From Pyrobaculum oguniense TE7 (GTDB taxonomy: Archaea > Thermoproteota > Thermoprotei > Thermoproteales > Thermoproteaceae), in assembly GCA_000247545.1 (NCBI GenBank), contig CP003316.1, positions 777,233 through 841,232 on the forward strand: a stretch of DNA of 64,000 bases, read 5' to 3'. Made by a program: the position numbers and the translations under genes. The notes beneath the pieces are model-generated. The model saw nothing but the letters and a program-made list of their open reading frames with translations, made no database searches and was not told where the DNA came from. Shown here one piece after another: positions 1,221 to 42,975 of this stretch; positions within the stretch are counted from its first letter, which is position 1, and every line of letters starts with the position of its first letter.

Positions 1221-3137
1221 ATGTCTACAATAAAGCTCTTGATAGATCCCATAACGCGCATAGAGGGTCACCTAGCGCTTTATGCCGAAGTGGATGCCGC
1301 TACCCGCGCCGTTTCCACGGCGAAGACTACCGCCATGATGTTCCGGGGCTTTGAGGTCTTTTTGAGGGGGAGATCCCCAGAGGACGCCATTGCCATAACC
1401 TCGCGCAGTTGCGGCGTCTGCGGGGCAGCCCACGCCAACGCCTCGACGAGGGCTTGCGACGCCGCGGCTGGTATGACCCCCCTCCCCATGGGCAACGTGC
1501 TGAGGAATTTGGCCTACGCAATGACAGACTACACCTACGACCACCCACTCATCCTCAACATGTTGGAGGGCCCCGACTACAGCGAGCTGATAGTGAGCAA
1601 GCTGACGCCCTCGGTGTGGCAGACCGGCCAGCAGACGCCGGCAAAATACTCCAGCATACACGGTTACCGCACAATAGCTGACATAATGCGCGACCTCAAC
1701 CCCATCCAAGGGCGTATTTGGCAACTGACGGTGAAATACCAGCGCATAGCCAGAGAGGCCGGTGTGTTGATATATGGCCGCCACGCCCACCCAGCGACGT
1801 TAATACCCGGCGGCATATCGACAGACATAACAAACCTGGCATCGTTGCTCCAGGAGTACTACGCGCGCCTATCCCTCTTGACCGCTTGGGTTAAGTTCGT
1901 CTGGGCCATATGGCAAGACCTCTACGAGTTCTTCAGAGACCACGTATCGACGCCGGACGGACAGCCCTACGCCCTAACGCAAGGCAAGACCCACGACCCG
2001 CCTGTGATGCTCGCGGGCGGATGGTCCGACGACCCCGAGGTCTACAGTAATATATACGACGAGGCTGGCGGTGATTGGGTGAAGATGTACTCCCTCCTGG
2101 ATAAGGCCTACAACGCCAGATGGGAAAAGCCCGGCTTCGCGATAGGCCACGAGATCTACAGCCCCAACCCCACCGAGATTCAGCTGGGCTATCTCGAATT
2201 CGCCGACTCCTCCTTCTACGAGGACTGGGTCAAGGCCAACGTGGCTCCGCCATACGGCTGGCTCAAGACGGATCCGTTGGGCAGAGAGCTGGCATACGGC
2301 ACAGACCTCTACAAATACCATATGTGGAACCGTACCACGATCCCGAAGCCCGGCGCCATAAACTTCGCCGAGAAGTACACGTGGGACGCCGAGCCTAGGC
2401 TCCTGCTAAAAGACGGCAAGATTGCCCCAATAGAGACTGGGCCCATATCTCAGCTCTGGCTCAACACGTTGCACGCGACTAAGGTCGAAGTTGATAACCA
2501 CAAGGCTTGGGAGAGCAACGGGAGCCAGCTCAAGGTTTATCTGCCCGGAGGCACCGTAAATCCTGACCTCCCGCCAGGCACCGCCGAGGAGTTGGTGATA
2601 ACGTGGAACTTGCCCAAATACTCTACGACTATGGAGAGGTTGTTAGCAAGAGCTGTGCACTTGGCCCTCGTGGTGTCCCTCGCTTGGGCCAACCTCCTCT
2701 ACGCCTTTAAGCTTATAAACGCCGGGAAGATCCAGACGTCGAGGCCATGGAGCTACGGAAAATGGCCAAGCTTCTCTTACAGCTTCGGCTGGTGGCAGGT
2801 GCCGAGGGGCAACTGCATGCACTGGCTGGTTCAGCAGAATGGTCGCCTGGCCAACTACCAGTACGAGGCGCCCACCACCCCCAACGTGAGCCCGACTAAT
2901 AACAGATGTACCGACCCTTGGAAGGGCCAGTGCGCCGGCCCGTTCGAGATGTCGGTACGCAACAGCAAGGTGACAGAGGAGGTGCCGCCGGATCAGTGGA
3001 CCGGCCTAGACCTCGTGCGCGCCATTCGTAGCTTCGATCCCTGTCTAGCGTGCGCGGTGCACTTTGAGGCTAAGGGCGAGGGTGGCCGCGTGTACAACGT
3101 GATAGAGAAAGTTATATGGAACGCTTGCTCGTTGTAG
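1221..3137 (+). CDS. [NiFe] hydrogenase large subunit
   Basis: Catalytic subunit of an uptake-type [NiFe] hydrogenase (H2 to 2H+ and 2e-). Both nickel ligand motifs are visible: RSCGVCGAAH in the N-terminal part (the RxCGxCxxxH L1 motif) and DPCLACAVH near the C terminus (the DPCxxCxxH L2 motif). After the last His there is a 24-residue tail, which in this family is removed by a maturation protease after Ni insertion. That protease gene overlaps the 3' end by 22 bases. At 638 residues it fits membrane-associated Group 1 enzymes, and the Isp2-like upstream neighbour supports the crenarchaeal Group 1 type. The small subunit is not in the window and probably lies upstream. A fragment resembling the L1 region recurs near 10.3 kb. 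Confidence 0.96.
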   Translation: MSTIKLLIDPITRIEGHLALYAEVDAATRAVSTAKTTAMMFRGFEVFLRGRSPEDAIAITSRSCGVCGAAHANASTRACDAAAGMTPLPMGNVLRNLAYAMTDYTYDHPLILNMLEGPDYSELIVSKLTPSVWQTGQQTPAKYSSIHGYRTIADIMRDLNPIQGRIWQLTVKYQRIAREAGVLIYGRHAHPATLIPGGISTDITNLASLLQEYYARLSLLTAWVKFVWAIWQDLYEFFRDHVSTPDGQPYALTQGKTHDPPVMLAGGWSDDPEVYSNIYDEAGGDWVKMYSLLDKAYNARWEKPGFAIGHEIYSPNPTEIQLGYLEFADSSFYEDWVKANVAPPYGWLKTDPLGRELAYGTDLYKYHMWNRTTIPKPGAINFAEKYTWDAEPRLLLKDGKIAPIETGPISQLWLNTLHATKVEVDNHKAWESNGSQLKVYLPGGTVNPDLPPGTAEELVITWNLPKYSTTMERLLARAVHLALVVSLAWANLLYAFKLINAGKIQTSRPWSYGKWPSFSYSFGWWQVPRGNCMHWLVQQNGRLANYQYEAPTTPNVSPTNNRCTDPWKGQCAGPFEMSVRNSKVTEEVPPDQWTGLDLVRAIRSFDPCLACAVHFEAKGEGGRVYNVIEKVIWNACSL

Positions 3138-3628
3138 GGCTGGGCAACCCTATTTACGGCGACGACGGCTTCGGTTCCTGTCTCGCCCAGTTTTTGTCTC
3201 TCTTTAACTCCTTCATCTTAGACGGCAATGCACACGGCATCGGAGTGCTCGGCAATCTTACGGATTATGACGTATTAGTTTTCTTGGACATTGACACAAG
3301 GTTGCCCCCAGGAGCAGTGGCCGTGGAGAGAATAGAGGGCTCTCTCACAGTTTCGGAGACAAGGCTAGTGGACGCCCATAGAACGCCCCCATCGCTCCTA
3401 GTTGGCTACTTAAGGGCGATGGGTAAGAACCCCAAAGCATATTTAATCGCCGTGGGGCCCAAAAGGGTGGAGCCTCTTTCGCCGCCCTCCGAGGAGGTCC
3501 TCGCGGCGTCTTATACCGTCCTCTCTGAGCTACGGCAGAAGCTTGCCGAGTTCGGATACGAGCTAAAAGTCGAGGGTGATGTTAAAAAGGGGGTGGAAGA
3601 GTGTTATAGACGTGTCCTCCGTGCGTGA
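3116..3628 (+). CDS. hydrogenase maturation protease (HyaD/HupD/HycI family)
   Basis: Endopeptidase that removes the C-terminal extension of the hydrogenase large subunit after nickel insertion. The N terminus reads LLVVGLGNPIYGDDGFG, the classic family start with the GNP and GDDG elements. A second Asp-containing segment (DYDVLVFLDIDTR) follows, and a His lies in VDAHRTPP; these positions match the metal-sensing Asp/His residues of HybD-type enzymes. It overlaps the large-subunit gene by 22 bases, indicating translational coupling. Length of 170 residues is normal for the family. Confidence 0.93.
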   Translation: MERLLVVGLGNPIYGDDGFGSCLAQFLSLFNSFILDGNAHGIGVLGNLTDYDVLVFLDIDTRLPPGAVAVERIEGSLTVSETRLVDAHRTPPSLLVGYLRAMGKNPKAYLIAVGPKRVEPLSPPSEEVLAASYTVLSELRQKLAEFGYELKVEGDVKKGVEECYRRVLRA

Positions 3629-3869: not shown

Positions 3870-4453
3870 TGTACGGCCTTTCCTACTTCTACTGGTTTAT
3901 ATACGGCACCAACTTAGACCTCCCCGCGGTTTTGGGTAAGCTGGTAGGCTTAGGATACGAGATCGGCCGGGCGACTTATAGAGGAGGCCTAGTCCACCTT
4001 GAACCGCTCCCCGACGGGTCGGCAGCCAAGCGCGTCTACGAAGATGGGGTGGTGCAAATATTCGCCGATTTGAATAAAGGCGCGTTGGGAGTATATGCGG
4101 AGAGCTACAATTTAGTTAACAGAGGCGTTGCAGACCTCTCCAGAGCGTTGGCGGAGCTTTCAGCGCCTGAGCCCCCCAGGGCGGAGCTACATATATCCTT
4201 TGGGTTCTCCGGGAACGACTGTAGGAGCGAGAAGCTGGTACTTGCCGGCGAGGATTTCGTCAAGACAGGTCTCGTGTTGGTGAGCGGGAAGCCGCAGGGC
4301 GGTGAAGGCATCTACATATTAATCACGCCAGCGGGTGACGGCCGTTATATAACTTACATAGTTATCGGCGGTGGTTGGCAGTACACGATCTCCCGCTTGA
4401 AAAGAGCGGGCGACCTTATAAACTCCCTTTTAGCGCTCTTCAACTGCAAATAG
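3869..4453 (+). CDS. unknown protein, last gene of hydrogenase operon
   Basis: Protein of 194 residues that I cannot place in a family. It begins LSYFYWFIYGTNLDL, then is mostly beta-strand-like with many Gly and aromatic residues, and ends in a short Cys-containing tail (LFNCK). No signal peptide or clear membrane helix is seen, and no known catalytic motif. The TAATG overlap with the preceding small gene suggests the last cistron of the hydrogenase operon. Its 3' end overlaps the convergent NikO gene by 24 bases. Co-occurrence with Group 1 crenarchaeal hydrogenases would be the test of a dedicated role. Confidence 0.65.
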   Translation: MYGLSYFYWFIYGTNLDLPAVLGKLVGLGYEIGRATYRGGLVHLEPLPDGSAAKRVYEDGVVQIFADLNKGALGVYAESYNLVNRGVADLSRALAELSAPEPPRAELHISFGFSGNDCRSEKLVLAGEDFVKTGLVLVSGKPQGGEGIYILITPAGDGRYITYIVIGGGWQYTISRLKRAGDLINSLLALFNCK

Positions 4454-5077
4454 GGGGCATCTGCATTTGTCGTATTCGTACTCTCTAGCTTTTGCCAAGG
4501 CCTCTTCGCCAGAGTATAGGGTGCCATCTGCCAGAAAGTGGAAGTTCCAGCCCAGCGCGAGAAACTGGTGAGAGGTCATCACCACAGTTTTAGCCGTGGA
4601 TGTAGCCGCTGAGATGGCCGTCTTGAGCGCTCTGGGCGAGAGACCCTCCGGAAGCTCGTCGAGTAGGAGGACGTCGGGCTTCCCCGCAAGCGCGCAGAGG
4701 AGCGCTGACAGCTTCCTCTGGCCCCAGCTTAAATGAAACGGGGAGCGATTAAGGAGATCCGCTATGCCGAGTTCCTTGGCTATCTCCTTGATTTCCCTCT
4801 CGTCGGATCGGTCTCTGCCCCACAAGACGGCGTTTTCCAACACCGTCCCCGCCACGAAGTGTACCTCGGGATCTTGGAACATTATCGACGTGACCCCCTC
4901 CACGTCGATTCTTCCGCGTTTTGGTTTTAATATCCCCGCTATTGCGTGGAGGAGGACAGTCTTTCCCGAGCCGTTGGGGCCTATCAAGATATTCAAGCCC
5001 ATGAGCTCGCCGGTGACCCCCCTCAACACGGCCCTCCCGTCTATATCAAGCCAAACGTCCTCTAGACGAATAGCCAT
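4430..5077 (-). CDS. nickel/cobalt ECF transporter ATPase (NikO/CbiO type)
   Basis: ATP-hydrolysing subunit of an energy-coupling-factor importer for Ni2+ or Co2+. Walker A is GPNGSGKT, the Q-loop lies in MFQDPEVHF, the signature is LSWGQR, Walker B is VLLLDE and the H-loop is MTSHQ. It is the last of four overlapping genes (NikM, NikN, NikQ, NikO). At 215 residues it is slightly short but contains every motif. The nearby hydrogenase makes nickel the more likely substrate, but NikMNQO and CbiMNQO cannot be told apart with certainty by sequence reading. Confidence 0.9.
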   Translation of the reverse strand: MAIRLEDVWLDIDGRAVLRGVTGELMGLNILIGPNGSGKTVLLHAIAGILKPKRGRIDVEGVTSIMFQDPEVHFVAGTVLENAVLWGRDRSDEREIKEIAKELGIADLLNRSPFHLSWGQRKLSALLCALAGKPDVLLLDELPEGLSPRALKTAISAATSTAKTVVMTSHQFLALGWNFHFLADGTLYSGEEALAKAREYEYDKCRCPLFAVEER

Positions 5078-5715
5078 GCCACGATAGCTACGATGAAGGT
5101 TATATCGCTTAAGGAGGGCTTAAGCTTACACAGAGGCGTCAACATAGTCGACACGGTGTAGATCTCTCTATACCTCGTCTCGATCCTCCGCAACATATAT
5201 ACCGCCGCGAAGGCGCCTCCTTGAAGATCTAATCGCCCTCTCAACGCCTTATATGCGCTCACGGCTGTGTCCAGAGCGTTGGGGGCCAGCAATACGGATT
5301 TCAACATAGCGACGATCACAGCGCCGTTGAACCCTAGGCAAGTTAGGGAGAGGATCGCCGGCGTAAAGCCCCTCATTGCGACGAAAGCTCCCAGCAACGC
5401 CGCTGACGAGACGGCGCGGTATAAGGTGTGGAGAGCCTCTTGAGGCAAGAAGCCGCGGGCTAGCAGAAGGCCCAGTGCGTACACAAACGCCGTGAACGCC
5501 GCCGTTGCGGCCGAGATCCTCAACACTATGCCCGCGCGCCTCCAGGCGGCGGCCGCCGAGATGCCGAGGGCGAACATCATGGAGTAGAGATCCGCCTTGA
5601 AGGCATATAGCGCAACGGCCGTTGCGGCTAGGCCTAGAGAAATCGGGGAGGCAGGCTCCCACCTCTCCTTGCTAACCGAGAGCAAAAAGGATTGGATTTC
5701 CGACAGGAAGGTCAT
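5062..5715 (-). CDS. nickel/cobalt ECF transporter T component (NikQ/CbiQ)
   Basis: Membrane coupling subunit of the ECF importer. There are several hydrophobic helices and a C-terminal cytoplasmic helical region containing ALRGRLDLQGG and LRRIETRYREIY, which corresponds to the Ala-Arg-Gly coupling motif area of EcfT/CbiQ. It overlaps the ATPase gene by 16 bases and the NikN-like gene by 4 bases. The assignment rests on position in the M-N-Q-O order plus the topology. Overall sequence similarity to bacterial CbiQ appears weak, as is usual in archaea. Confidence 0.82.
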   Translation of the reverse strand: MTFLSEIQSFLLSVSKERWEPASPISLGLAATAVALYAFKADLYSMMFALGISAAAAWRRAGIVLRISAATAAFTAFVYALGLLLARGFLPQEALHTLYRAVSSAALLGAFVAMRGFTPAILSLTCLGFNGAVIVAMLKSVLLAPNALDTAVSAYKALRGRLDLQGGAFAAVYMLRRIETRYREIYTVSTMLTPLCKLKPSLSDITFIVAIVAWLFV

Positions 5716-5978
5716 CTCCCTCTCTCGAACAACAAAGTGAGCAGTATGAACACGGCCACGCCCATCGCGCCGGCTATTATATAGCCTACAACGTCGGGTA
5801 AGCCTGGCACCGTGTAGTCCTTAAACGGAGTCCAGTTTATCTCGGATTCGTTGAGGTCCAACATATCTGCTACGTTGTCGAGGGGCTCAGCATAGCCGAC
5901 CGCGTTGGCCAGAATAACGCCGAATATCGGCGAGATCAATAGAAGGATCAAGATGAGTGTTAGGTAGCGCTTGCTCAT
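5712..5978 (-). CDS. nickel/cobalt ECF transporter small subunit (NikN/CbiN)
   Basis: Small membrane protein of 88 residues with a helix at each end and an extracytoplasmic loop between (ending PGLPDVVGY), the layout of CbiN/NikN. The ATG at 5978 overlaps the stop of the upstream NikM gene (ATGA), which fixes the start. A longer open frame reaching to 6257 runs antisense-like through NikM and is not real. NikN is required with NikM for metal translocation in the characterised systems. Confidence 0.85.
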   Translation of the reverse strand: MSKRYLTLILILLLISPIFGVILANAVGYAEPLDNVADMLDLNESEINWTPFKDYTVPGLPDVVGYIIAGAMGVAVFILLTLLFERGR

Positions 5979-6610
5979 GGCCTCGGCTTGGCGGCCAGGA
6001 CCGGTATTTGCGCGGGCATCATGCCGTAGCGCCGCAGAGTTGCCACTAGGGCTACGGTTATAGCCCCCTCGACAATTCCCAAGAGGAAGTGGGGTATAGC
6101 CATTGCCGGGATCGTGATCGAGAGCGGATAGCCTATAGTCGGCATTAACCCGATCTCGAGACCAGCGGCAGTTCCCGCTATGAATATGCCGAGCCATCCT
6201 CCCAGGAAGGCCCCCGCAAGGGGGTATCTCCTCTCCAATAACTTCCACAGCGCCCATCCGATCCAGACGTACACTACCCCCATGTTCAAGACGTTAGCGC
6301 CGTACGCCGTTATGCCCCCGTCGTGAAAAAGAAGTGTTTGAACTGCCAGGACTATCGCTATGGCTATGCTTGCGGCCCACGGGCTGTTTAAGTACATAGC
6401 AGCGAAGGCCCCGCCGACGAAGTGAAGCGAGGTGCCGCCTGGGATAGGCCAATTGAGCATCTGGGCCACGAAAATGGCGCCGGCTACGGCCGACACTCTA
6501 GGTAGAAGATCCCTAGGCGTTTTCCTCGCGGCAAAATAGAGGTAGATGGCCGCAATCAGCCACGTGGCGCCCGCCATGTAGGGATCTAGGTATCCGTCTG
6601 GTATGTGCAC
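5975..6610 (-). CDS. nickel/cobalt ECF transporter S component (NikM/CbiM)
   Basis: Metal-binding membrane subunit of the importer. I place the start at the GTG at 6610, three codons inside the longer ATG frame at 6619, because this makes the protein begin MHIPDGYLDP. CbiM/NikM proteins start with Met-His-Ile-Pro-Asp-Gly, and structural work on NikM places the N-terminal Met-His segment at the metal site. Other conserved elements are SLHFVGGAFAA and LLFHDGGITAYGANVLNMG. Several membrane helices fill the rest. First gene of a four-gene operon, with an A/T-rich promoter region just upstream (about 6620-6660). Confidence 0.93.
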   Translation of the reverse strand: MHIPDGYLDPYMAGATWLIAAIYLYFAARKTPRDLLPRVSAVAGAIFVAQMLNWPIPGGTSLHFVGGAFAAMYLNSPWAASIAIAIVLAVQTLLFHDGGITAYGANVLNMGVVYVWIGWALWKLLERRYPLAGAFLGGWLGIFIAGTAAGLEIGLMPTIGYPLSITIPAMAIPHFLLGIVEGAITVALVATLRRYGMMPAQIPVLAAKPRP

Positions 6611-6758
6611 ATCTGTCATACTATATTTTATTTAAATTATTACTTCCGCGAAGTTGAAAAACTATCACGGCCAAGCGGCGCGAAAAAGGGCATTACGCCG
6701 CGATCCACGTCAGCGTTCACCGCGCCGCATTGGTGAACTACGATGTTTCTGAATCTGA

Positions 6759-8481: not shown

Positions 8482-8829
8482 TCATGCGAGTTCCTTAATG
8501 GCCTCCCTCCTTCCGCTCTTGGCCTCCTCGGCTATCTTCAACACGCGCCACATCTCCTCCTCTATTATCTTGGCGGCGGCCTCAGGATCCTCCCCGGTCG
8601 AGGCAGCGAGTTCCCTTGCCATCTGCTTCCACATCTCCATGCTCTCCTTGAGGGTGGCGAGATCCACCTTGGCTATTATCACGCCGGCGTGCACCATGAC
8701 CAAATCGCCGGGTTGAAGCGCCGACTCGTCGATCCCTATCACAGCGGGCCTTTCTACGCCGTCGCCTGGATCCACCCAAGCTATGCCGCCCTCGATCTTG
8801 GTCACCACGGAGGGGACTGCCCAGCACAT
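8482..8829 (-). CDS. hypC: hydrogenase maturation chaperone HypC
   Basis: HypC/HybG/HupF-family chaperone that carries the Fe(CN)2CO precursor with HypD and delivers it to the hydrogenase large subunit. The start MCWAVPSVV has the invariant Cys2 that binds iron, followed by the small beta-barrel core (GGIAWVDPG, then LVMVHAGVIIAKVD). At 115 residues it is longer than the usual 75-90, with a helical, charged C-terminal extension. It lies 2 bases after the hypD stop, so the two are co-transcribed, as is typical for partners that form a stable complex. Confidence 0.94.
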   Translation of the reverse strand: MCWAVPSVVTKIEGGIAWVDPGDGVERPAVIGIDESALQPGDLVMVHAGVIIAKVDLATLKESMEMWKQMARELAASTGEDPEAAAKIIEEEMWRVLKIAEEAKSGRREAIKELA

Positions 8830-8831
8830 GG

Positions 8832-10112
8832 CTAGAACACACCGATTTCCTTAGCTATTTCCTCGGCCAGCCCTCCTCCGCCGAATCTAGCCCATATGGC
8901 GCAAGTCCCCTCGACGGACACCATGCAAGGGCCTATCGGCCTATCCGGCGTGCAAGCCTTCATGAAGAGCGGGCAGTCGGTGGGCTTCGCCTTGCCCAAG
9001 TTGACCTCGGCGCATTTACAGTTGGCCGGGAGGTCGTAGCGCCAAGTATCCGGCGTTAGGTCCGGTATGCCGAAATGCTCCAACGCGTCATGTTTCTTGA
9101 ATTCATCCCTCAGCGCAAGCCCGCTCTTTGGGATATAGCCTATGCCCCGCCAGGCCGAGTCCACGGTCTCGAACACAGTCCTTATGGACGACTGGGCTTT
9201 TAAGTCCCCCTCCCACGTTACAGCTCTCGTGTATTCTATCACCACCTTGTGCTCGCCTTTGGCTAACTGCCTCAGTATCTCCGCAACGGCGGTCAAGACG
9301 TCGTTGGGCTCGAAGCCCGCCACGACCACTGGTATCTCGAACTGTTCGGCCACGGGCCGCCACGCCTTGCCGCCCACTATGGTCGACACGTGGCCCGGCG
9401 CTATGACGCCCGATATGGGGAAGTCGGTGGGCTTCTCCCTCACGACCTCGAGCGTGTAGAACATGGCGGGCGGGGTGAGCTTGACCAAGGACATGAGCTT
9501 GAGGTGGTCGGGCACCAGCCCCTTCAAGATGGCCTCGGAATAGCCCGGCGCAACCGTCTCGAACCCTATCCCGACGAAGGCCGAGGGCTTGGCGTGTTTC
9601 CGCGCGTCCAAGATCGCGTGCAGGAACGAATGCACTATCCTTACGTCGCCGCCCAGCGCCCTCGCCTCGGCGAGCGAGCGCGCGCCCTTGACGGGGCGCA
9701 GAGCCGGCAACTTGTACACGTCCCCATAGGTGTAGATCACGACGCCTTCAAGGGCCAGCTTGATGGCTTGCTCTATGTAGTAGGAGGGCGTGACGCACAC
9801 GGGGCAGCCCGGCCCCGCGACGAGCTCCACGTTGTCGACCCCGGCCTTCTTCAAAAGGCTCCTCAAGCCGAAGTGGACTATAGTCCACTCGTGCGTGCCG
9901 CAGAAATCCATGATCTTATAGACATAGCCCGGATCCCTTGCCTTGAGCTCCTCGGAGTACTTCTTGATGCTCCGGATAAGGGTCGAGGTCACTGCCGTCT
10001 TGCGCCTAAACGCCTGCTCTATCGCGGCAATCTCGCGTTTCATCACGGGACATTTCCAGCAGTCCAACATGGGCGCCACCGGGAAGTCCGTCGGGAGCGA
10101 AACGCACGACAT
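8832..10112 (-). CDS. hypD: hydrogenase maturation factor HypD
   Basis: Fe-S scaffold on which the Fe(CN)2CO moiety of [NiFe] hydrogenase is assembled with HypC. Visible motifs are DFCGTHEWTI and GPGCPVCVTP (the conserved CGTHE and GPGCPVC), and a C-terminal [4Fe-4S] cysteine set (NCKCAEVN, DCPLF, KACTP, CAIW). An N-terminal extension contains DCWKCP, a CxxC not required in the bacterial protein. Length of 426 residues is a little above the usual 370-380 because of it. Followed immediately by hypC. An ATG inside the extension (about residue 15) is an alternative start. Confidence 0.95.
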   Translation of the reverse strand: MSCVSLPTDFPVAPMLDCWKCPVMKREIAAIEQAFRRKTAVTSTLIRSIKKYSEELKARDPGYVYKIMDFCGTHEWTIVHFGLRSLLKKAGVDNVELVAGPGCPVCVTPSYYIEQAIKLALEGVVIYTYGDVYKLPALRPVKGARSLAEARALGGDVRIVHSFLHAILDARKHAKPSAFVGIGFETVAPGYSEAILKGLVPDHLKLMSLVKLTPPAMFYTLEVVREKPTDFPISGVIAPGHVSTIVGGKAWRPVAEQFEIPVVVAGFEPNDVLTAVAEILRQLAKGEHKVVIEYTRAVTWEGDLKAQSSIRTVFETVDSAWRGIGYIPKSGLALRDEFKKHDALEHFGIPDLTPDTWRYDLPANCKCAEVNLGKAKPTDCPLFMKACTPDRPIGPCMVSVEGTCAIWARFGGGGLAEEIAKEIGVF

Positions 10113-10409: not shown

Positions 10410-11153
10410 CTAGAACAATACCCCTTTATGTTCCCTCAATATCAAGGGCCTTACGCCGTATACCGCCTCCAGGACATCCTCGCTGAAGGTCCCTTCGACG
10501 GGGCCAGCGGCGTGTATTTCGCCGTCTTTCATGAAAATGGCGTAGTCGGCGTATTTATATGCGATATTCAAGTCGTGTAGAACGGCTATTACGGTCGCCG
10601 TCTTCGATAAATCCTTAAGAATGCTCATTATCCGCAGTTGGTTCCTTACGTCGAGGTTGTTGAGAGGCTCGTCGAGGAGGAGGACCCTGGGCTCAACGGC
10701 GAGAGCCCTCGCGATTAACACCAGCTGAAGCTCCCCGCCGCTTAGCTCTTCGAGGAATCTATCCCTTAGGTGGGAAGCCCCCACTAGCTTAAGGGCCTCC
10801 TCGGCCTTCTCGTAATCCCGCGCCGAGGGGTAGAGCATCATGTGAGGCTTCCTAGAGCTGACCACCAAGTCGATAGCTCTCAGCCGGCCTGTGGGAGAGA
10901 TCCTCTGCGGGACGTAGCCCAGCTGCTTGTAGAGTTCCTTGCCAAGCTCCCTCGTGGATCTCCCATTGACGTACACCACGCCCCTCTTGACCCTCAAGAC
11001 GCCGGCTATTACCCGGAGGAGGGTGGTCTTGCCGGAGCCGTTTGGGCCCAAGATGGCGGTGACGGCGTTCGGCGGAATGTCCACGGTAATTCCCTTGAGG
11101 ACGGGGCGGCCTGGGTAGGAGAACTCCACCCCCTCCACCCTCACCCTCACCAT
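10410..11153 (-). CDS. iron/metal-chelate ABC transporter ATPase (FecE/BtuD type)
   Basis: ATPase of a siderophore/cobalamin-type importer. Walker A is GPNGSGKT, the Q-loop is in GYVPQRI, the signature is LSGGELQ, Walker B is VLLLDEP followed by NNLD, and the switch His is in AVLHDLN. The ATG at 11153 overlaps the permease stop by 7 bases and places the protein start at MVRVRVEGVEFSYPG; the longer frame to 11444 lies antisense to nothing useful and is discarded. Last gene of the FecB-C-E set. Confidence 0.93.
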   Translation of the reverse strand: MVRVRVEGVEFSYPGRPVLKGITVDIPPNAVTAILGPNGSGKTTLLRVIAGVLRVKRGVVYVNGRSTRELGKELYKQLGYVPQRISPTGRLRAIDLVVSSRKPHMMLYPSARDYEKAEEALKLVGASHLRDRFLEELSGGELQLVLIARALAVEPRVLLLDEPLNNLDVRNQLRIMSILKDLSKTATVIAVLHDLNIAYKYADYAIFMKDGEIHAAGPVEGTFSEDVLEAVYGVRPLILREHKGVLF

Positions 11154-12163
11154 GCCTCCCCCCTCTTCCTGGCTTGTAGCAGTAGGGCTAGGATGAAGGC
11201 CGCCCCTATGAAGGACATGGTGATCCCCACGGGGATTATCACGGGGGGCTTCACCACTCTGCCCAACACGTCTGCGCCTAGAAGGAGCCAAGCCCCCGTG
11301 AGTGCAGACGCCGGCATGAGCCTTCTGTGCTCCCCGCCTATTATCAGCCTCGCCATGTTGGGAGCCGCCAGCCCGACGAAGCCTATCACGCCGGTGAAGC
11401 TGACGAGGACTGCGACAGATGCGCTTGAGGCCAGCAGAGTCCACAGACGTAGCTTCCTCGGCTCCACCCCCGACGACTTGGCCACCTCGTCGCCAGCCGA
11501 CATGAGGTTGAAGTCCACCGCCCTAAGCCAGAAGTAGGCCAGAGTAGCCACGGAAACTGCCAACAGCAGATAGCTCTCCTCAAGGGAGGGCCTCCCCACG
11601 TCGCCGAAGGTCCAGAAGACCACCGCCGCCGTCTGGAGGTCGTTGAGGAATAGGTATTGAAGGAGGGCCAACAAAGCTTGGTACATGGAGGAGACGGCTA
11701 TCATTGCTAAGATGATTGAGGCCAAGGTGAAGCCGCCCAGCGACGCGAAGAGTAGCACGAGCAAGGCGTTGGCGAAAGCCGCGGCGAAAGCTGAGGCGAT
11801 GACGAAATAGGGGTTCGTGACGGACACAAGCCCCCTAGCCACTGCGCCGGAACCTGCCAGGAATATCGCAAGCGCCACGCCCACGGCGGCCGCTTGGGGG
11901 ATGCCGAGGGTGAAGGGCGAGGCTAGGGGGTTTCTCAACGCCGACTGAAGCGCGGCACCGGCCACGGCCAAGGCCGCGCCGACGGCCACCGCGGTCACGG
12001 CTCTGGCTAGTCTCATACGTGCCACCGCGCCCTCGGGCCCTTGCGAGTTTACGGCGCTGAGGACGTCCAAGGACGACATGTGGAAAACGCCGATGGAGAG
12101 GGAATATAGGAAAAGCGAGATTAACGCGGCGGCTGACGCGGCGATGTAGAGGGCTATCCGCAT
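11147..12163 (-). CDS. iron/metal-chelate ABC transporter permease (FecCD/BtuC type)
   Basis: Membrane permease of 338 residues with about ten hydrophobic helices. Family markers include GAALAVAGAALQSALRNPLA near the N terminus and the cytoplasmic coupling element GVIGFVGLAAPNMAR later, both classic FecCD features. It overlaps the binding-protein gene upstream (10 bases) and the ATPase gene downstream (7 bases). One permease gene implies a homodimer as in BtuC. The substrate would be a metal chelate; which metal cannot be read from the permease. Confidence 0.93.
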   Translation of the reverse strand: MRIALYIAASAAALISLFLYSLSIGVFHMSSLDVLSAVNSQGPEGAVARMRLARAVTAVAVGAALAVAGAALQSALRNPLASPFTLGIPQAAAVGVALAIFLAGSGAVARGLVSVTNPYFVIASAFAAAFANALLVLLFASLGGFTLASIILAMIAVSSMYQALLALLQYLFLNDLQTAAVVFWTFGDVGRPSLEESYLLLAVSVATLAYFWLRAVDFNLMSAGDEVAKSSGVEPRKLRLWTLLASSASVAVLVSFTGVIGFVGLAAPNMARLIIGGEHRRLMPASALTGAWLLLGADVLGRVVKPPVIIPVGITMSFIGAAFILALLLQARKRGEAW

Positions 12164-13383
12164 GGGAAGCTCAGCTTCCTGAACCCCCCGCCGAAGTCCT
12201 TGGCTATTTTTTGATATAAGGGCATTCCTAGGAACACCTCGTAGATCTCATTAGCCTTGGCGATTGGGTCCACGTCGGCGAAGCGGTTTGGGTAGAGCAC
12301 TTTGCCCATGTAGTAGGCGTCGGCGAACATCGTGGCTATGTTGGTCCAATAGTAGTTGAAGGGCAATATGCCGTATACTCTACCCTCCTTGAACGCCTTT
12401 AGGGAGCAGTAGAGATCCCTCGATCTGTTGTAGTCTTGTAAGACGGTCATGTAGTTGCCCAAATCCACGAAGACGACGTCTGGCTGGGCTTGGAGGAGGG
12501 CCTCCCAGCTTATCTGGGCGCCCGGCTTTATGCCGTATTTATCGGCCACGTTGGGCGTGTTGAGGAGGACTAACGGCGGGAATCCAGCTTGGGTGCTGGT
12601 GAAAGGCTGGCCTCCCTTGAAGGATACAGCGCCGACGTATACAGTGGGCCTATTAGTGATGTTGGCTGTGCGCGCTTTTAAGTCTGCTATAAGCGACTTC
12701 ATGTAGGCGATCAACTGCTCAGCTCTCTGCTCCCTGCCCAGAACCTTGCCCAAGACCTTCAGCGAGTAGAAAAGCTCCGTGAAGTTGATGGAGCCCGTCG
12801 TGCCGTAGGACACGACCACCACGGGTATGCCGGTCTTCTGTTGCACCTCGTCCGGCGTATTCGCCAATACAGGCGTCATTATTATGACGTCGGGCTTCAC
12901 GGCCATTATAGCCTCGAAGTTCACGGGGCTGTCGGGGCCTCCCTGGCCTACGATTGGCAGGTTCGTTAAATTCTTGGCCCATATCACGTAGCCGTAATCC
13001 CTCCCTTGAGGAGGCCTTTTCTCCATTGCCTCAATGCCCACCAATATATCCGTGGCGTTGAGGTACACCACCAGGCGCAAGGCGCCGGGGCCCATAGCCA
13101 CTGCTCTTTTCACTGGCACCCTTATCCTGACCTCTCTACCCACTACGTCCTTGATAACGAGGAATTGAGGAGAAGCCACAGACGGCGGAGTAGCGGAAGA
13201 CGTAGTGGATGACGTTGATGAGGGCGTCGCGGTCGCGGAGGACGTCGTGAGCGACGTTAACGAAGGCGCCGACGCCGTCTGCGGGGGAAGCTGGGAGGAG
13301 GGCAGAGCCCGCAGTGTTAGATACAATGCGATTGTCAGGACGGCAGCGATTATTAGGACGGAGGCCCAAAGGACCTTGCCCAT
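12154..13383 (-). CDS. metal-chelate ABC transporter substrate-binding protein (FepB/BtuF type)
   Basis: Extracellular binding protein, 409 residues. An N-terminal membrane anchor (VLIIAAVLTIALYL) is followed by a Ser/Thr/Pro-rich linker of about 40 residues typical of glycosylated archaeal binding proteins, then a type III periplasmic-binding fold (DVVGREVRIRVPVKRAVAMG; IMAVKPDVIIM; LLQAQPDVVFVD). First gene of the FecB-C-E operon. A palindrome lies 26-48 bases upstream of the start. The neighbours (FmdE, DUF364, Hyp genes) suggest a nickel, cobalt or molybdenum/tungsten chelate rather than iron; this is inference. Confidence 0.9.
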   Translation of the reverse strand: MGKVLWASVLIIAAVLTIALYLTLRALPSSQLPPQTASAPSLTSLTTSSATATPSSTSSTTSSATPPSVASPQFLVIKDVVGREVRIRVPVKRAVAMGPGALRLVVYLNATDILVGIEAMEKRPPQGRDYGYVIWAKNLTNLPIVGQGGPDSPVNFEAIMAVKPDVIIMTPVLANTPDEVQQKTGIPVVVVSYGTTGSINFTELFYSLKVLGKVLGREQRAEQLIAYMKSLIADLKARTANITNRPTVYVGAVSFKGGQPFTSTQAGFPPLVLLNTPNVADKYGIKPGAQISWEALLQAQPDVVFVDLGNYMTVLQDYNRSRDLYCSLKAFKEGRVYGILPFNYYWTNIATMFADAYYMGKVLYPNRFADVDPIAKANEIYEVFLGMPLYQKIAKDFGGGFRKLSFPCG

Positions 13384-13408
13384 AGAACCCCCAAGGACTG
13401 GGTTTTTA

Positions 13409-13431
13409 AGTATTACTCATGTAGTAATACT
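13409..13431. promoter_or_regulatory. palindromic operator candidate upstream of the FecB-type gene
   Basis: Perfect inverted repeat AGTATTAC-N7-GTAATACT, located 26-48 bases before the binding-protein start. The inner TTAC/GTAA halves are shared with the palindrome in the DUF364-hypF intergenic region and a half-site before the FmdE gene. Such placement is what a metal-responsive repressor would use. The regulator is not identified. Confidence 0.5.
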
Positions 13432-13524
13432 GTCTTATATGGATCGGTTCCCGAAAGAGATGCCTTCTCGAAGAGCTCCGGATCGCCTGCCTCTACGTGT
13501 TTAACGTGGATCAGTTGCGCGGCC

Positions 13525-14382
13525 TCATCCAAGTGTCTCAACAAGGCGGCGGACATGGCCAGCTTCGAACTTGGGGTGTCCCCCCACCACGCCGGCGATT
13601 TCTCTAGCCTTCTCCCAGTCGAAGGAGATCACGAGAACCTCCTCGCGTCCTCTGTCGTGTATAAACGCTATATATGCGGGATCTCCTCCCAACGATCTCC
13701 TCAGCTCTTGCCGGCGATCTTCCGTTAAGAACTTAACGGAGAAGTTCCTCTTGCCGGGCGTCGCGTCGAGGACTTGTATCAACAAGTCGTCCTTGCACCA
13801 CGGCGGTGCGGAGACGAGTTTTATCTCGACGCCTTGTTTGAGAAGGCCGAGTTCCTCCAGGCGGCGTATGATCAAATAGCCCGATATTAGGCCCGGGCAC
13901 ACGTGATTGTGCAACTCCGCGCCTAGCAACAGCTCATGTGAAGCGCCCGAGAGCCATGCCGCGAGTATCGTCAAATATCGGGCCTTATCGCTCCACCCCT
14001 CAGCTCCTCCCGGCGAGAGGGGCTCCCACTTGATGTAATCCGCAGTCGCCCGGTCGCATGCGGCGATTTTCTCCACGGCGCTTCTAGCGACCCTCGCGTA
14101 TACTCCTTTGGAGGAATCCTTGTTGTAGGCTACCAGATGTAAATCGGCATAATACGGCGAGTGGACCGGCACCACGTTGTAGTAGAGCTCGAGCCCTTTT
14201 TCTAGAAACGCCGTCATGACCGGAGCTACGCTGTATCCTCTAGAGGTCAGAAACTTCGCGTTAGTGGCGACGAAGGCGTTTTCCGGGCCTAAAGCGCCTA
14301 TCTTCTCCTCGATTAGGGCCAGGAGCTTTCTGCCAAGCTCCTTGAAGGCGCAGGCTACGTTATGCGGATTACAGCCTTTCAT
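13525..14382 (-). CDS. FmdE-domain protein of metal-uptake cluster
   Basis: Protein of 285 residues whose C-terminal half has the FmdE signature AELHNHVCPGLISGYL (His and Cys ligands) followed by KLVSAPPWCKDDLLIQVLD, the metal-binding Cys-rich core of the FmdE family. The N-terminal half, about 130 residues, is unassigned. FmdE proteins were first seen next to molybdenum formylmethanofuran dehydrogenase genes and recur beside metal transporters. Here it lies between the FecB-C-E transporter and a DUF364 gene on the same strand. A metal-sensing, chelating or chelate-processing role is inferred. Confidence 0.8.
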   Translation of the reverse strand: MKGCNPHNVACAFKELGRKLLALIEEKIGALGPENAFVATNAKFLTSRGYSVAPVMTAFLEKGLELYYNVVPVHSPYYADLHLVAYNKDSSKGVYARVARSAVEKIAACDRATADYIKWEPLSPGGAEGWSDKARYLTILAAWLSGASHELLLGAELHNHVCPGLISGYLIIRRLEELGLLKQGVEIKLVSAPPWCKDDLLIQVLDATPGKRNFSVKFLTEDRRQELRRSLGGDPAYIAFIHDRGREEVLVISFDWEKAREIAGVVGGHPKFEAGHVRRLVETLG

Positions 14383-14385
14383 GTC

Positions 14386-14394
14386 AGTAATACT
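14386..14394. promoter_or_regulatory. half-site AGTAATACT before the FmdE-domain gene
   Basis: The 9-base sequence AGTAATACT lies 4-12 bases upstream of the FmdE-gene start and matches the right arm of the palindrome at 13409-13431. A partial AGTATT follows at 14408. Arrangement is everted rather than inverted, so binding is less certain than at the two full palindromes. Confidence 0.3.
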
Positions 14395-14404
14395 ATTTCT
14401 GTAT

Positions 14405-15145
14405 TTAAGTATTCCTTAAATCCACAACATAAGGCACGCCGAGGTCCGAGTGTATGGCCAGCGAGATGTATCCACCTCGCTTGAGGTGGTTGACGGCAAC
14501 CTCTATCTTGAACTTCATAGAGGCGAGCACGTGAACCCTCGAGCCCTTGACCAGTGCTGGGTGTACGCCGGCCGTGGGCCCCGTCAGTATGTTGAGACCC
14601 TGGGAGAGCTCCAGCACTCTATCCAAGGTGAAGTTGAGGAGGGTCATCCCAGTGATCACCAAGGTCCTACACCGCGGGAGCAGGAGCTCTTCCTCAACGT
14701 CGGAGTAGGCGCGCCATCTGAGCTCCCTTGACCTCTCGAACACCCAAACCTCTTTCCCCTCTCTTCTGAGCTTCTCCGCCAACGGCCCCATGTTGCCCAC
14801 GAGGCATATGGGCTCCTCCTCGAGGTAAGGGTCGACTAAGCCAGGCGTTGCGTCTAGGTGGTACTGCGAAACGGCGTTCATCATGGCCACTCCTAGCACT
14901 CTGTTGAGCGGGTTTAGGTCCGTCACGAACTCCGGCATCTCCTCCAGCCGGGGTCGCCTCACTTCGCCCAAATCGTGGAGATCCTCGTGGGGTATGTGGG
15001 CGAACCCCAAGGCCTTCCCCTTAGGCCCCTCGACCACGACGTATCCGCCCTTGAGACATAGGCAGTAGTCAACGATCCTCAGACCTTCCGCCAGCGGGAC
15101 GGCCTTCTCTGCGAACGCCTTCACCAGCGGGCGCCTGGAGGCCAT
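14405..15145 (-). CDS. DUF364 (putative heavy-metal chelation) protein
   Basis: Protein of 246 residues of the DUF4213/DUF364 type. Seen: the AMMNAVSQYHLD segment of the N-terminal domain, the Rossmann-like ICLVGNMGPLAEKLRREG, and LVITGMTLLNFTLDRVLE with LTGPTAGVHPALV of the DUF364 domain. The DUF364 family is described as a putative heavy-metal chelation domain and is often found near metal transport and molybdenum enzyme genes. It is the first gene of the minus-strand metal cluster and divergent from hypF, with a palindrome between. The biochemical activity is unknown. Confidence 0.82.
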   Translation of the reverse strand: MASRRPLVKAFAEKAVPLAEGLRIVDYCLCLKGGYVVVEGPKGKALGFAHIPHEDLHDLGEVRRPRLEEMPEFVTDLNPLNRVLGVAMMNAVSQYHLDATPGLVDPYLEEEPICLVGNMGPLAEKLRREGKEVWVFERSRELRWRAYSDVEEELLLPRCRTLVITGMTLLNFTLDRVLELSQGLNILTGPTAGVHPALVKGSRVHVLASMKFKIEVAVNHLKRGGYISLAIHSDLGVPYVVDLRNT

Positions 15146-15183: not shown

Positions 15184-15198
15184 GTGTTACCGTAACAC
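15184..15198. promoter_or_regulatory. palindrome between DUF364 gene and hypF
   Basis: Perfect inverted repeat GTGTTAC-C-GTAACAC in the 89-base divergent promoter region, 39-53 bases from the DUF364 start and 37-51 bases from the hypF start. The arms equal half-sites I recall being predicted for NikR regulons (GTGTTAC/GTAACAC), but those have a 13-15 base spacer, not one base. It could control both directions. Confidence 0.5.
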
Positions 15199-15234: not shown

Positions 15235-17475
15235 GTGAGGGCATTCAAGATATACGCGGTGGGCATAGTGCAAGGGGTGGGCTTTCGCCCTTACGTGAAG
15301 ATGTTGGCGGACTCGCTAGGAGTCGCAGGATACGTCAAGAACATGGGAGGAGGCGAGGTGGAGATCTTCGTGGAGGGCGAGAGGGCCGCGAAGTTCGTCG
15401 AGGCGCTTTGGAACAGCAGGCCTAGGGCCATAGTGCTGGAGGAGCTCATAGTGCAGGAAGCCGAGCCCCAAGGCCGTAGATCGTTCGAGATCTTGAAAAG
15501 CGACGAGGAGGCCCGGACGCCTTCTAACGTGCCCCCGGATCTCGCCATCTGCGAAGAGTGTCTGAGAGAAGTCCTCGAGGGGGATGAGAGGAGGCGCGGG
15601 TACTATTTCAACTCTTGTAGCTTCTGCGGCCCCCGCTTCTCAGTGATGAGACGCCTTCCCTACGATAGGGAAAACACCAGCTGGGTCTCCTTCCCCATGT
15701 GCCCCCAATGCGCGGCCGAGTACTCTTCGCCCCGGCTCGGGGGTGTCAGGAGGTTCTTCTACCAGGGAATATCGTGTAAGCTTGATGGGCCTCGGGTGAG
15801 GCTCCTCGATTCTTCAGGCAAGCCGGTAGAGTCCGACAATCCGGTCTTGAAAGCGGCTGAGCTGGTATCAAGGGGGTACATTGTCGCCGTTAAGGGCATA
15901 GGTGGGTACCACATATTTGCCAGGGCGACTGACGACTCTGTTGTGGCTGAGCTAAGGCGCAGAAAGAGAAGGCCGAGCCAGCCCTTTGCGGTGATGGCCT
16001 TGGACTTGAGAGTCGCGGAGCGCCTAGTCCACATAGACGAGAGGGCTGCCAGCTTGTTAACGTCTCCTCAGAGGCCCATAGTCCTTCTGCCCAAGAAAGA
16101 GGACAGCCCAATCTCGCCGCTTGTGGCGCCCGGCTTGGACAAGGAAGGTGTGTTCCTGCCCTATACGGCTCTGCAGTATCTGCTGTTGGCCCACACCGAT
16201 GACAAATTCGCTGTTGCCACCAGCGGAAACGTGCACGGAGAACCTATGTGTAAGGATCTCAAATGCGCTTTAGAGAAGCTGGGGCGGGTAGTAGACTACT
16301 TGCTGGATCACGACTTGGAGATCGTGCATAGGGTCGACGACAGCGTGTTGAGGTTCACAAACGGCGTGCCGACTTTTCTGAGGAGGTCTAGGGGGTATGC
16401 CCCAGCGTGGATCCGCATACCCAGAAGGCTCAAGAGACCGGTGGTGGCCTTCGGGGCGGATCTCCAGACGGCCGGCGCCGTGGCCTTCGAGGACAAGGTG
16501 GTTTTGACCCAGTACATAGGCGATCTCGACAACTTCGACGCCCTTAAGGATCTCGACCAGGAGCTGAGGTGGTTCTTCAAGGCATATAGGCTTAGGGATC
16601 CTGTGTTGGTCTGTGACAAGAACCCGGCGTATAACAGCACGAGGCTCTGCAAGGAGTGGGCAGAGGAGCTGGGGGCGGAGACGTTCGTAGTTCAACACCA
16701 CCACGCCCACGCACTCGCCGCCGCAGCAGACGCCAAGCTCGACGAGCCCTTCGTGGCCATAGCCATAGACGGCGTAGGGTATGGCGATGACGGCATGGCT
16801 TGGGGTGGCGAGATCCTCTTCGTGGAAGGGGCCAAGTATGTGAGGGAGCGCCATCTGCGCTACGTGCCCATGCCCGGAGGCGATTTGGCCGCTTTGAGAC
16901 CTGCCAGAATGGCCGCGGCGTATTTCCACGAGGCCTTCGGCGAGGTGCCGATGTGGCTGGCGGAGCGTCTCCCCGGAGGCCTTCCGGAGCTGGAGGTGGT
17001 AGAGAGGGAGCTCAAGGCGCCTAAGCTATTCACGTCAAGCACGGGGAGGTTCCTAGACGCCGTGGCGGCGGCGTTGGGCGTGGCTTGGGAGCGCACCTAC
17101 GAGGGCGAGCCTGCCATAAGGCTGGAGGCGGCGGCCGCAGGCGGAAGGCCTCTGCCGCTTGAGGCAGAGGACCAAGTAGAGCTCTTCGCGCAGGCTGTCG
17201 AGGCGTATAGATCCCGCCGACCACTAAAAGACGTGGCGTACTCAGTACAGCTAAAGCTAGGCTCTATCCTTGGGACGTGGGCTTGCGAGAGCGCCCAGAG
17301 GAGAGGTGTCGATACAGTAGCTGTGTCGGGAGGAGCCGCAGTGAACGACTTCATAATAGCCGGCATAGCCCAGGAGATCGTGAGTTGCGGCCTGAGATTT
17401 ATACAACACATCAGGGCACCTCCAGGAGATGAAGGCATCGCCCTTGGTCAGTCATATATGACATCATTTACATGA
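15235..17475 (+). CDS. hypF: carbamoyltransferase HypF
   Basis: Makes the cyanide ligands of [NiFe] hydrogenase from carbamoyl phosphate with HypE. Domains in order: acylphosphatase (GIVQGVGFRPYV), zinc-finger region (CEEC, CSFCGPRF, CPQC), YrdC-like (GYIVAVKGIGGYHIFA; RRKRRPSQPFAVM), and Kae1-like carbamoyltransferase (VVQHHHAHALAAAADA; IDGVGYGDDG). Length of 746 residues is standard. Odd point: the last zinc-finger pair, normally CPxCGP, reads SCKLDGP, so one Cys is replaced by Asp, and the preceding RFH is RFF. The GTG start follows directly on the divergent promoter. Confidence 0.95.
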   Translation: MRAFKIYAVGIVQGVGFRPYVKMLADSLGVAGYVKNMGGGEVEIFVEGERAAKFVEALWNSRPRAIVLEELIVQEAEPQGRRSFEILKSDEEARTPSNVPPDLAICEECLREVLEGDERRRGYYFNSCSFCGPRFSVMRRLPYDRENTSWVSFPMCPQCAAEYSSPRLGGVRRFFYQGISCKLDGPRVRLLDSSGKPVESDNPVLKAAELVSRGYIVAVKGIGGYHIFARATDDSVVAELRRRKRRPSQPFAVMALDLRVAERLVHIDERAASLLTSPQRPIVLLPKKEDSPISPLVAPGLDKEGVFLPYTALQYLLLAHTDDKFAVATSGNVHGEPMCKDLKCALEKLGRVVDYLLDHDLEIVHRVDDSVLRFTNGVPTFLRRSRGYAPAWIRIPRRLKRPVVAFGADLQTAGAVAFEDKVVLTQYIGDLDNFDALKDLDQELRWFFKAYRLRDPVLVCDKNPAYNSTRLCKEWAEELGAETFVVQHHHAHALAAAADAKLDEPFVAIAIDGVGYGDDGMAWGGEILFVEGAKYVRERHLRYVPMPGGDLAALRPARMAAAYFHEAFGEVPMWLAERLPGGLPELEVVERELKAPKLFTSSTGRFLDAVAAALGVAWERTYEGEPAIRLEAAAAGGRPLPLEAEDQVELFAQAVEAYRSRRPLKDVAYSVQLKLGSILGTWACESAQRRGVDTVAVSGGAAVNDFIIAGIAQEIVSCGLRFIQHIRAPPGDEGIALGQSYMTSFT

Positions 17476-25129: not shown

Positions 25130-25612
25130 GTGTCGTGTCCCATTTGCCTAAGGCCGATAGGCGTAGTCGAGGTGGGGCTTCCCAGGTTCGGCAGGGTGGA
25201 CAAGTACAGCTTCGTCTCTGTCATCAGGGTATACGACGAGTACGCTGAGGGGCTAGCCGGGCTTGAGGACTACAGCCACGCCTTCGTGCTGTGGTACTTC
25301 CACGAGACGAGGGGGGTGAAGCTTAGGCTGAGGCCGTGGGGCCGGGAAGACTTCCCTGAGGTGGGCATATTCGCCACTAGGTTTACCCAGAGGCCAAACC
25401 CCTTGGCCCTAACCATTGTCAAGATCGTGGAGGTGGACCCGCCGAGGCTCCGGGTAATGGGCCTAGACGCGTGGAGCGGTAGCCCGGTGCTGGACATAAA
25501 GCCCTACGACCACCTAGACGTCGTTAACGAGTTCAGAACTCCCGACTGGTTCGAGGAGTTTTTCAAGTCGCTGGGAGGACTACCCGAGTGGCTAGGGCCC
25601 AGCAGAAGGTAG
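25130..25612 (+). CDS. TrmO/TsaA-family tRNA methyltransferase
   Basis: 160-residue protein of the UPF0066/TrmO family, which in bacteria methylates N6 of t6A37 in tRNA-Thr using SAM. Markers: RPIGVVEVG at the N terminus, LEDYSHAFVLWYFHE, VGIFATRFTQRPNPLALTIV and GSPVLDIKPYDH. The GTG at 25130 gives a slightly extended N terminus (SCPICLRPIG) with two Cys that are not a standard family feature. Confidence 0.9.
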   Translation: MSCPICLRPIGVVEVGLPRFGRVDKYSFVSVIRVYDEYAEGLAGLEDYSHAFVLWYFHETRGVKLRLRPWGREDFPEVGIFATRFTQRPNPLALTIVKIVEVDPPRLRVMGLDAWSGSPVLDIKPYDHLDVVNEFRTPDWFEEFFKSLGGLPEWLGPSRR

Positions 25613-41179: not shown

Positions 41180-41862
41180 GTATCTTCATATGCCGCAAGT
41201 TATAAAAAGATTATTATAATATTTTGAGTAAGCCCTATATCAAAACCGAAATCTATCATTATTTCTTCGTGATTACATAAACTACATAGAAATAATTTCT
41301 ACATTCTAACCTAGAATAGTGTATCGCTTTAAAACATAGGGGCTTCAGTGCAAAGCATTAAAAATGCAATAGTCTCTCTTAAAAGCTTTCTATTGTTGAG
41401 CATTCTATATTAACTGTAACCTAAGATAGATTAGACTTGCAACAAGTCAATTTGATAAGGTAAGTCAAAGTTAAAATAACATCTATTTATTAAATTTTTT
41501 CGCAAAGAAGATAAGTATCAACATACAAAATGCTACTAAAAACCAGATCAACTATGACATAGATTTTGTTGTTCCTAAGATGTCAACATGAAGCCCAAAG
41601 GCCGAAATCTAAACTAGTTTCTGACCCAGAACAGAAAAAAGTTTGTAAAAATTAATACGCATATAAAAAATTAAAATAGTTAAAAATATTTAAAAAGTTA
41701 AGAAAATATTATAAGAAAGAAATAAGAACAAAAATATAATTTTTGCTTAATACCTTATCATCAAAGGTTAAAGCTATTAGCACACTAATGTACATAACTA
41801 CTCATATAGAAGAATAAATATAAAAATGAAGTCAAAAACAAAAAAGTCAAAATTAAAAATAA
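41180..41862. other. A/T-rich intergenic region, no gene seen
   Basis: About 680 bases of strongly A/T-rich sequence, unlike the GC-rich neighbours. Stops occur in all frames and I recognise no RNA gene, repeat array or IS end. It contains the promoter of the YeiH-type gene (just after 41179). Together with the decayed genes to 44.4 kb it forms a low-GC island. Confidence 0.6.
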
Positions 41863-42421: not shown

Positions 42422-42504
42422 GCACATATTAATAACACTGCCTTAAAAACATTTACCATAATTGTGTGATTTTTCTCTTTGAAAAAATTTAAAATAGTAT
42501 TAGA

Positions 42505-42852: not shown

Positions 42853-42975
42853 AATCTCATTGTTTAAAAGTTATTACTTTTATTTGTGTAGTAAATGTAA
42901 TTTAATATAACTTAAATTATTATCAACTTAAAAAATTTATATTCTATTAAAAATTTTTAGTTTTAAAATTTTTTA

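Follow-up and report, generated by a model that had tools for sequence, protein, structure and literature searches.

A FecBCD-type importer with FmdE and DUF364 proteins in a Pyrobaculum hydrogenase island as a candidate second nickel-import and nickel-handling module

Which metal is moved, and for which enzyme, by a FecBCD-type ATP-binding cassette (ABC) importer that lies with an FmdE-family and a DUF364 protein in the middle of a hydrogenase maturation cluster? The question is raised by positions 10,410 to 15,145 of a 64,000-nt stretch of contig CP003316.1 from the hot-spring archaeon Pyrobaculum oguniense TE7 (hereafter the window, to which coordinates refer unless a locus is named; the whole genome, G000, has 2.45 Mb in two contigs). 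A sequence-only reading had placed the importer, FmdE and DUF364 between hypF and hypD/hypC, with a separate NikMNQO importer close by, and Pfam and TIGR matches find all the named genes there, NikQ by position only (Table 1). It had also proposed a second, chelate-based nickel system serving the hydrogenase. We consider it probable, at roughly 0.7, that the cassette serves the hydrogenase island as a second module for importing and handling nickel, over and above NikMNQO, and nickel is the best-supported substrate of the importer. A second nickel importer for the hydrogenase is supported by conserved linkage with NikR, HypA, CooC-like ATPases, CooS, NikBC, NikMQO and hyp genes, so that this part of the proposal holds; the chelate would follow only from the transporter type and from a binding protein without invariant His, Cys or Met.

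The linkage was assessed across genomes. When bacterial and archaeal genomes were scanned for relatives of the substrate-binding protein (SBP), 172 came up, of which 80 were kept as clade loci, with members in Thermococcus, Archaeoglobus, Desulfurococcales, Moorella, Desulfofundulus, Clostridia, Actinomycetota and others. When 45 clade loci were compared within 6 kb with 51 FecCD loci lying elsewhere in the 45 clade genomes searched for FecCD, nickel markers except NikM were found at 18/45 clade loci versus 2/51 controls (p 2e-5), counts which lean towards the clade since the marker profiles were made from the clade loci's own neighbours. Taken singly, NikR (5/45 versus 0/51), HypA (4/45 versus 0/51) and CooC-like ATPases (14/45 versus 2/51) all follow this direction, as does FmdE (24/45 versus 1/51). 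Marker representatives were verified by Pfam, NCBIfam or PDB matches: NikR scored over the NCBIfam cut-off, CooC had its best PDB match in 3kje at 1.7e-16, and CooS, NikB-type and NikC proteins at clade loci exceeded their cut-offs. A C-x-C motif is kept in 21/21 CooC-like proteins examined.

On the SBP tree, the linkage with NikR, HypA, NikM and HypD requires no fewer than 8 changes, which argues against a single inherited accident. Moorella locus L071 has the order NikB-NikC-(NikD-NikE)-TrmO-SBP-FecCD-FecE-NikM-NikQ-NikO, the bracketed pair being Opp/Nik-type ATPase genes, and FecE runs straight into NikM in genomes as distant as Moorella (L071, L076) and Pyrobaculum (G004, G005); CooS and CooC are both present at the clade loci L073 and L099. 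HypD was found in 34/46 clade genomes searched, and HypD or a CO-dehydrogenase-like protein in 43/46, a count which, read from the match pattern, leaves out one genome with only a hydroxylamine-reductase-like match; this co-occurrence lends weak support, such enzymes being common in anaerobes. The exceptions (G024, G025, G056) are all metagenome assemblies, and the loci L039 (in G025) and L091 (in G056) themselves carry HypA and NikR.

Partners of other kinds recur as well. TrmO was found at 13/45 clade loci versus 0/51 controls (20/80 clade loci overall) and flavin reductase at 5/45 versus 0/51, while methyltransferases within 6 kb showed no difference between the 45 and the 51 loci. Genes for TrmO-like proteins, for O-methyltransferases or other methyltransferases and for flavin reductases recur at L042-L048, L052, L058, L062, L063, L074, L077 and others; in the window itself, TrmO is encoded at 25130-25612, 10 kb from the cassette. 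Beyond these partners, the only strong themes among the non-core neighbours scanned with Pfam and NCBIfam (140 of 358) were BPD_transp, CooS, CdhD and CbiQ. Of the 80 clade loci, 2 have both FmdE and a CooC-like ATPase, 39 FmdE alone, 18 a CooC-like ATPase alone and 21 neither (Fisher 2e-5); the idea that the two are mutually exclusive partners was dropped after phylogenetically independent pairs gave no significance (median p 0.5).

Close relatives repeat the arrangement. Among 19 Thermoproteaceae genomes, window genome included, the cassette is found in five, all with HypD, which occurs in 12/19; DUF364 exceeds the family cut-off in 5/19, and window-type FmdE is present in 2/19. Hyp and nik genes adjoin the cassette in 4/5 cassette genomes, three of which we take to be Pyrobaculum as well: G009, G004 (presumably P. 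islandicum) and G005 (presumably P. neutrophilum). G009 repeats the window gene order; G004 and G005 have a collinear DUF364-SBP-FecCD-FecE-NikM-NikN-NikQ-NikO run facing hypD-hypC-hypF, with FecE 72 nt and 54 nt from NikM, respectively. Since the order recurs in G009 and runs into NikMNQO in G004 and G005, the arrangement of the cassette is more than chance. NikR is present in 11/12 HypD-bearing genomes of the family, window genome included, and in 0/7 HypD-less ones. In G008, all that is left next to hypF-hypC-hypD is a C-terminal DUF364 remnant (residues 176-244; L203 6789-6995), a sign that an ancestral hyp locus may have lost the cassette.

Several observations, together with the lean of the marker counts, weigh against nickel. 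The SBP is not orthologous to NiuB/CeuE: its profile (A1) matches the nickel protein NiuB (4ino/4ls3) only at E 0.003-0.005, versus E 2.5e-21 for 3psa (HI_1472), which we take to be the molybdate/tungstate protein MolA. Neither NikM (2/45 clade loci versus 3/51 controls) nor DUF364 (0/45 versus 2/51; 1/80 over all clade loci) is enriched in the clade, and neither FmdE nor DUF364 is nickel-specific as a family, as a paralogous Moorella operon behind a molybdenum/tungsten (Mo/W) riboswitch indicates (L146, see below). In G015, presumably Thermoproteus tenax, a four-gene version of the cassette lies ~60 kb from hyp and nik genes, with an SBP gene frameshifted by decay or sequencing error (L024 7953-9130). 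The window SBP shares 48% identity (E 5.5e-94) with 2etv, a clade member of known structure annotated as an iron(III) ABC binding protein, which we take to be TM0189 of Thermotoga maritima. Thermotogae are reported to use cobalt and not nickel (PMC2667541), so that 2etv goes part of the way towards conservation in genomes lacking Ni and Mo/W enzymes, a finding that the sequence-only reading had itself named as adverse; on the SBP tree 2etv is placed inside Thermococci and looks laterally transferred.

Four other substrates have to be weighed. Import of a cobalt complex, or of cobalt and nickel complexes without distinction, would accord with the CbiM-type neighbours, with the reported transport of both metals by NiuBDE (PMC5140060) and with the cobalt use of Thermotogae (PMC2667541). 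We nevertheless consider it unlikely, since the established functions of the NikR, HypA, CooC-like and CooS neighbours are specific to nickel and since in Thermoproteaceae the family goes along with hyp genes.

A little less credible is import of molybdate/tungstate, or of a Mo/W complex, by an importer akin to Haemophilus MolBCA, which is of the same transporter class, with FmdE and DUF364 serving Mo/W enzymes. The SBP match to 3psa speaks for it, FmdE is named after a molybdenum enzyme operon, and in L146 (Moorella, G039) a Mo/W riboswitch (6170-6307) immediately precedes FmdE-FecCD-FecE-SBP, a run that also gives weak DUF364 matches. That operon is probably a Mo/W sister of the nickel system. 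Riboswitches were compared at 14 bacterial clade loci and 17 control FecCD loci: directly upstream of clade genes, a cobalamin or Mo/W riboswitch occurred at 0/14 loci, versus seven cobalamin riboswitches and one Mo/W riboswitch (that of L146) among the 17 controls. Matches in L045, L047, L061 and L094 lie elsewhere. Unlike what a MolBCA-type importer would lead one to expect, the 140 neighbours scanned of 358 include no Mo/W or pterin family in the top 25 of 177 families, and nickel genes recur at clade loci instead.

Automatic annotation of the family, 2etv included, favours an iron-siderophore importer that came to lie in the hyp cluster by accident; with nickel linkage recurring across phyla in differing gene orders and no iron gene among the identified recurrent partners, we regard this as very improbable. 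Least of all can we credit a BtuFCD-like importer of corrinoids (vitamin B12), which shares the Pfam architecture, whose BtuC/BtuD models the permease and ATPase match far below cut-offs, and to which a gene reading as CobS beside L041 and the corrinoid protein CdhD beside L059 might point, but whose riboswitch, directly upstream in 7/17 controls, precedes no clade gene at the 14 bacterial loci, the one in L094 belonging in front of an adjoining collinear FecBCD operon.

FecBCD-type nickel import as such is already known. NiuBDE of Helicobacter pylori, a FecD/FecE/CeuE-type nickel ABC importer, has the FecBCD architecture in common with the window cassette, and both stand beside another nickel permease and are linked to nickel enzymes (PMC5140060). 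It has been proven by 63Ni transport, whereas nickel transport by the window cassette is inferred; its niuB (ceuE) gene is regulated by NikR; and the accessible text of that report mentions no FmdE, DUF364 or CooC-like partner (PMC5140060). The two binding proteins, as seen above, are barely related. The new elements here are a separate, widely spread FecBCD clade, the links that tie it to NikR, CooC-like ATPases, CooS and hyp genes, and a DUF364 subclade that goes with nickel genes and has a residue set of its own; within the open-licence literature searched, no paper assigns DUF364 to nickel handling or this clade to nickel. The companion importer NikMNQO, an ECF-type system in the same cluster and collinear with the cassette in G004/G005 and Moorella L071/L076, belongs to another transporter class and takes up the free nickel ion.

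In what form would nickel arrive? The window SBP has an N-terminal membrane anchor followed by a Ser/Thr/Pro linker. An alignment of 86 clade members contains no invariant His, Cys or Met, and its invariant or near-invariant residues are Arg, Tyr, Glu, Asp and Asn, a pattern that would fit a complexed metal better than a bare ion.

The FmdE domain of the window protein spans residues 157-232 and includes H158, H160, C162 and C196; HxHxC and the second Cys are each kept in 43/43 clade-linked FmdE proteins that span this region, window included. In the solved FmdE B8FYU2, the HxHxC...C site held mixed Zn/Ni, and most genes of the family are reported to lie beside metal-ion transporters (PMC2954224). 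The window protein shares this site with the solved one and differs from it by an extra N-terminal domain and by the lack of the C-terminal treble-clef zinc finger, which is optional in the family and is likewise lacking in the G009 protein; the window sequence has no evident signal peptide. An AlphaFold model from a 3-row alignment reached pLDDT 64 and gave no Foldseek match at E <= 0.001. A classical FmdE that has both HxHxC and the zinc finger is encoded in G004 (L022 16793-17506), divergent and ~1.8 kb from DUF364; G005 matches it only at its C-terminal end (26.6 bits). A window-type FmdE in Desulfofundulus (L052 6706-8022), beside CooC-like and flavin-reductase genes, has a long N-terminal extension which starts like a signal peptide, and is apparently exported.

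DUF364 occurs in 99/398 Thermoproteota genomes. FecCD lies within 6 kb at 2/40 Thermoproteota loci selected across many groups, and DUF364 as a constant FecBCD partner was rejected. The closest kin of the window DUF364 depart from the family at large. In G141, presumably Vulcanisaeta distributa, such a DUF364 stands between a NiCoT permease (PF03824 E 5e-100) and NikR, within a hypDCFE/hypAB cluster. In G297 it is collinear after NikM...NikO, 92 nt past the NikO match, with NiCoT, NikR, HypA and HypB nearby; no FecBCD was found at the DUF364 clusters of G141 and G297. An isolated copy occurs in G128, which also has HypD. Among 51 DUF364 proteins compared, the potential metal ligands Cys28, Cys30, His50, His57 and Cys159 are kept in 9/9 intact nickel-linked members, window included, and the full set in 0/42 others, five of which have three of the five.

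The AlphaFold model of the window DUF364 (pLDDT 89.8) matches 3npg (E 2e-25) and 3l5o (E 2e-12), and shows the enolase-like and Rossmann-like fold of the family; the four N-terminal residues of the set lie where strands 1 and 3 end and past the short helix that comes next. For these two structures, of which 3npg lacks the Cys-x-Cys and two-His set, a metal-transport context was proposed in 2010 (PMC2954201). The Ni/Zn-type site of FmdE and the DUF364 kin beside NikMNQO or NiCoT, where no chelate importer was found, point to intracellular metal handling rather than to the suggested role of FmdE and DUF364 as chelators or chelate processors. We tentatively raise the possibility, on the less likely side, that the DUF364 subclade is a dedicated intracellular nickel handler (carrier, store or sensor) by virtue of an acquired Cys-x-Cys and His...His set, fed by three unrelated importers (FecBCD, NikMNQO and NiCoT); FmdE and CooC-like ATPases would likewise receive nickel, on the inner side of FecBCD.

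For the cassette as a nickel module, the following route may be envisaged. The membrane-anchored SBP would capture Ni(II), most probably in complex with a small molecule, and the FecCD/FecE importer would move it into the cell, where cytoplasmic FmdE (HxHxC...C) and/or DUF364 (CxC plus two His) would take the metal and hand it on in the direction of HypA/HypB, to supply the NiFe hydrogenase. When nickel is plentiful, the cassette could be shut off by a regulator that binds the palindromes, perhaps the NikR encoded ~18 kb away. If this route is true, many hydrogenase- or CO-dehydrogenase-bearing anaerobes, archaeal and bacterial, that carry this importer under an iron or siderophore annotation have had their nickel supply and its limitation misread, and FmdE and DUF364, families of obscure role, gain a testable job with named residues.

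The regulatory step takes its cue from two perfect palindromes (Table 1), the only sites of GTRTTAC-N0..16-GTAAYAC in the window genome (13410-13430, spacer 7; 15184-15198, spacer 1). With R/Y allowed, their half-sites equal the delta-proteobacterial NikR consensus GTGTTAC-N13/14-GTAACAC (PMC545781), although the spacers differ from the 13 or 14 of that operator. A further point against this step, and against nickel with it, is that the pattern was not found upstream of nikM or nikR in the window genome. The exact pattern occurs in 0 of G009, G004, G005 and G015; near-matches are a 12/14 site at the homologous place in G009 and a 13/14 site upstream of NiCoT in G297. Over the 19 genomes it is not commoner (4 sites) than a reversed control (3 sites), and the notable feature is only that both window-genome sites fall within the cassette. 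NikR control of the cassette through these palindromes is offered as a lead.

Table 1. Positions of the cassette, its palindromes and the neighbouring hydrogenase and nickel genes in the window.
Feature	Position	Strand	Evidence or remark
FecE-type ATPase	~10410..11153	-	PF00005 E 4e-30
FecCD-type permease	11147..12163	-	PF01032 E 6e-73
Substrate-binding protein (SBP)	12154..13383	-	PF01497 E 2e-28
Perfect palindrome AGTATTACT-N5-AGTAATACT	13409..13431		Upstream of SBP gene; NikR-type half-sites
FmdE-family protein, 285 aa	13525..14382	-	PF02663 E 9e-9, C-terminal part only
DUF364/DUF4213 protein, 246 aa	14405..15145	-	PF04016 E 7e-24 and PF13938
Perfect palindrome GTGTTAC-N1-GTAACAC	15184..15198		Divergent DUF364/hypF promoter
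HypF	15235..17475	+	TIGR00143 over cut-off
HypD	8832..10112	-	TIGR00075 over cut-off
HypC	8482..8829	-	PF01455
NikM (CbiM family)	5975..6619	-	PF01891 E 4e-55
NikN-like, PDGLE domain	5712..5978	-	Start inferred from homologues
NikQ by position	5062..5715	-	No Pfam match; 42% identity to NikQ-position gene of G002
NikO ATPase	4430..5077	-	nikMNQO block = 4430-6619
NiFe hydrogenase large subunit	1221..3137	+	
Hydrogenase maturation protease	3116..3628	+	

Along the minus strand, from 15145 to 10410, the cassette reads DUF364, FmdE, SBP, FecCD and FecE, and the last three supply the FecBCD/BtuFCD-type importer architecture in one run. The FecE start is placed at the Met at 11153, which is conserved among homologues, instead of the listed open reading frame start at 11444. 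DUF364 and FmdE are 22 nt apart and FmdE and SBP 141 nt, while SBP and FecCD overlap by 10 nt and FecCD and FecE by 7 nt; this spacing allows a single transcript, except for the 141-nt gap before SBP. The hypD and hypC genes come after FecE on the same strand, and hypF diverges 89 nt from DUF364. Left of the window (stretch L220) are genes reading as HypE, HypB, HypA, NikR and the hydrogenase small subunit, of which Pfam confirms HypA, NikR, the AIRS domains of HypE and the small subunit. Elsewhere in the window, positions 40001-44000 have a G+C content of 0.38-0.40 versus ~0.55 in the remainder, and the genes there resemble those for a sulfite or nitrite reductase split in two (42976-44112).

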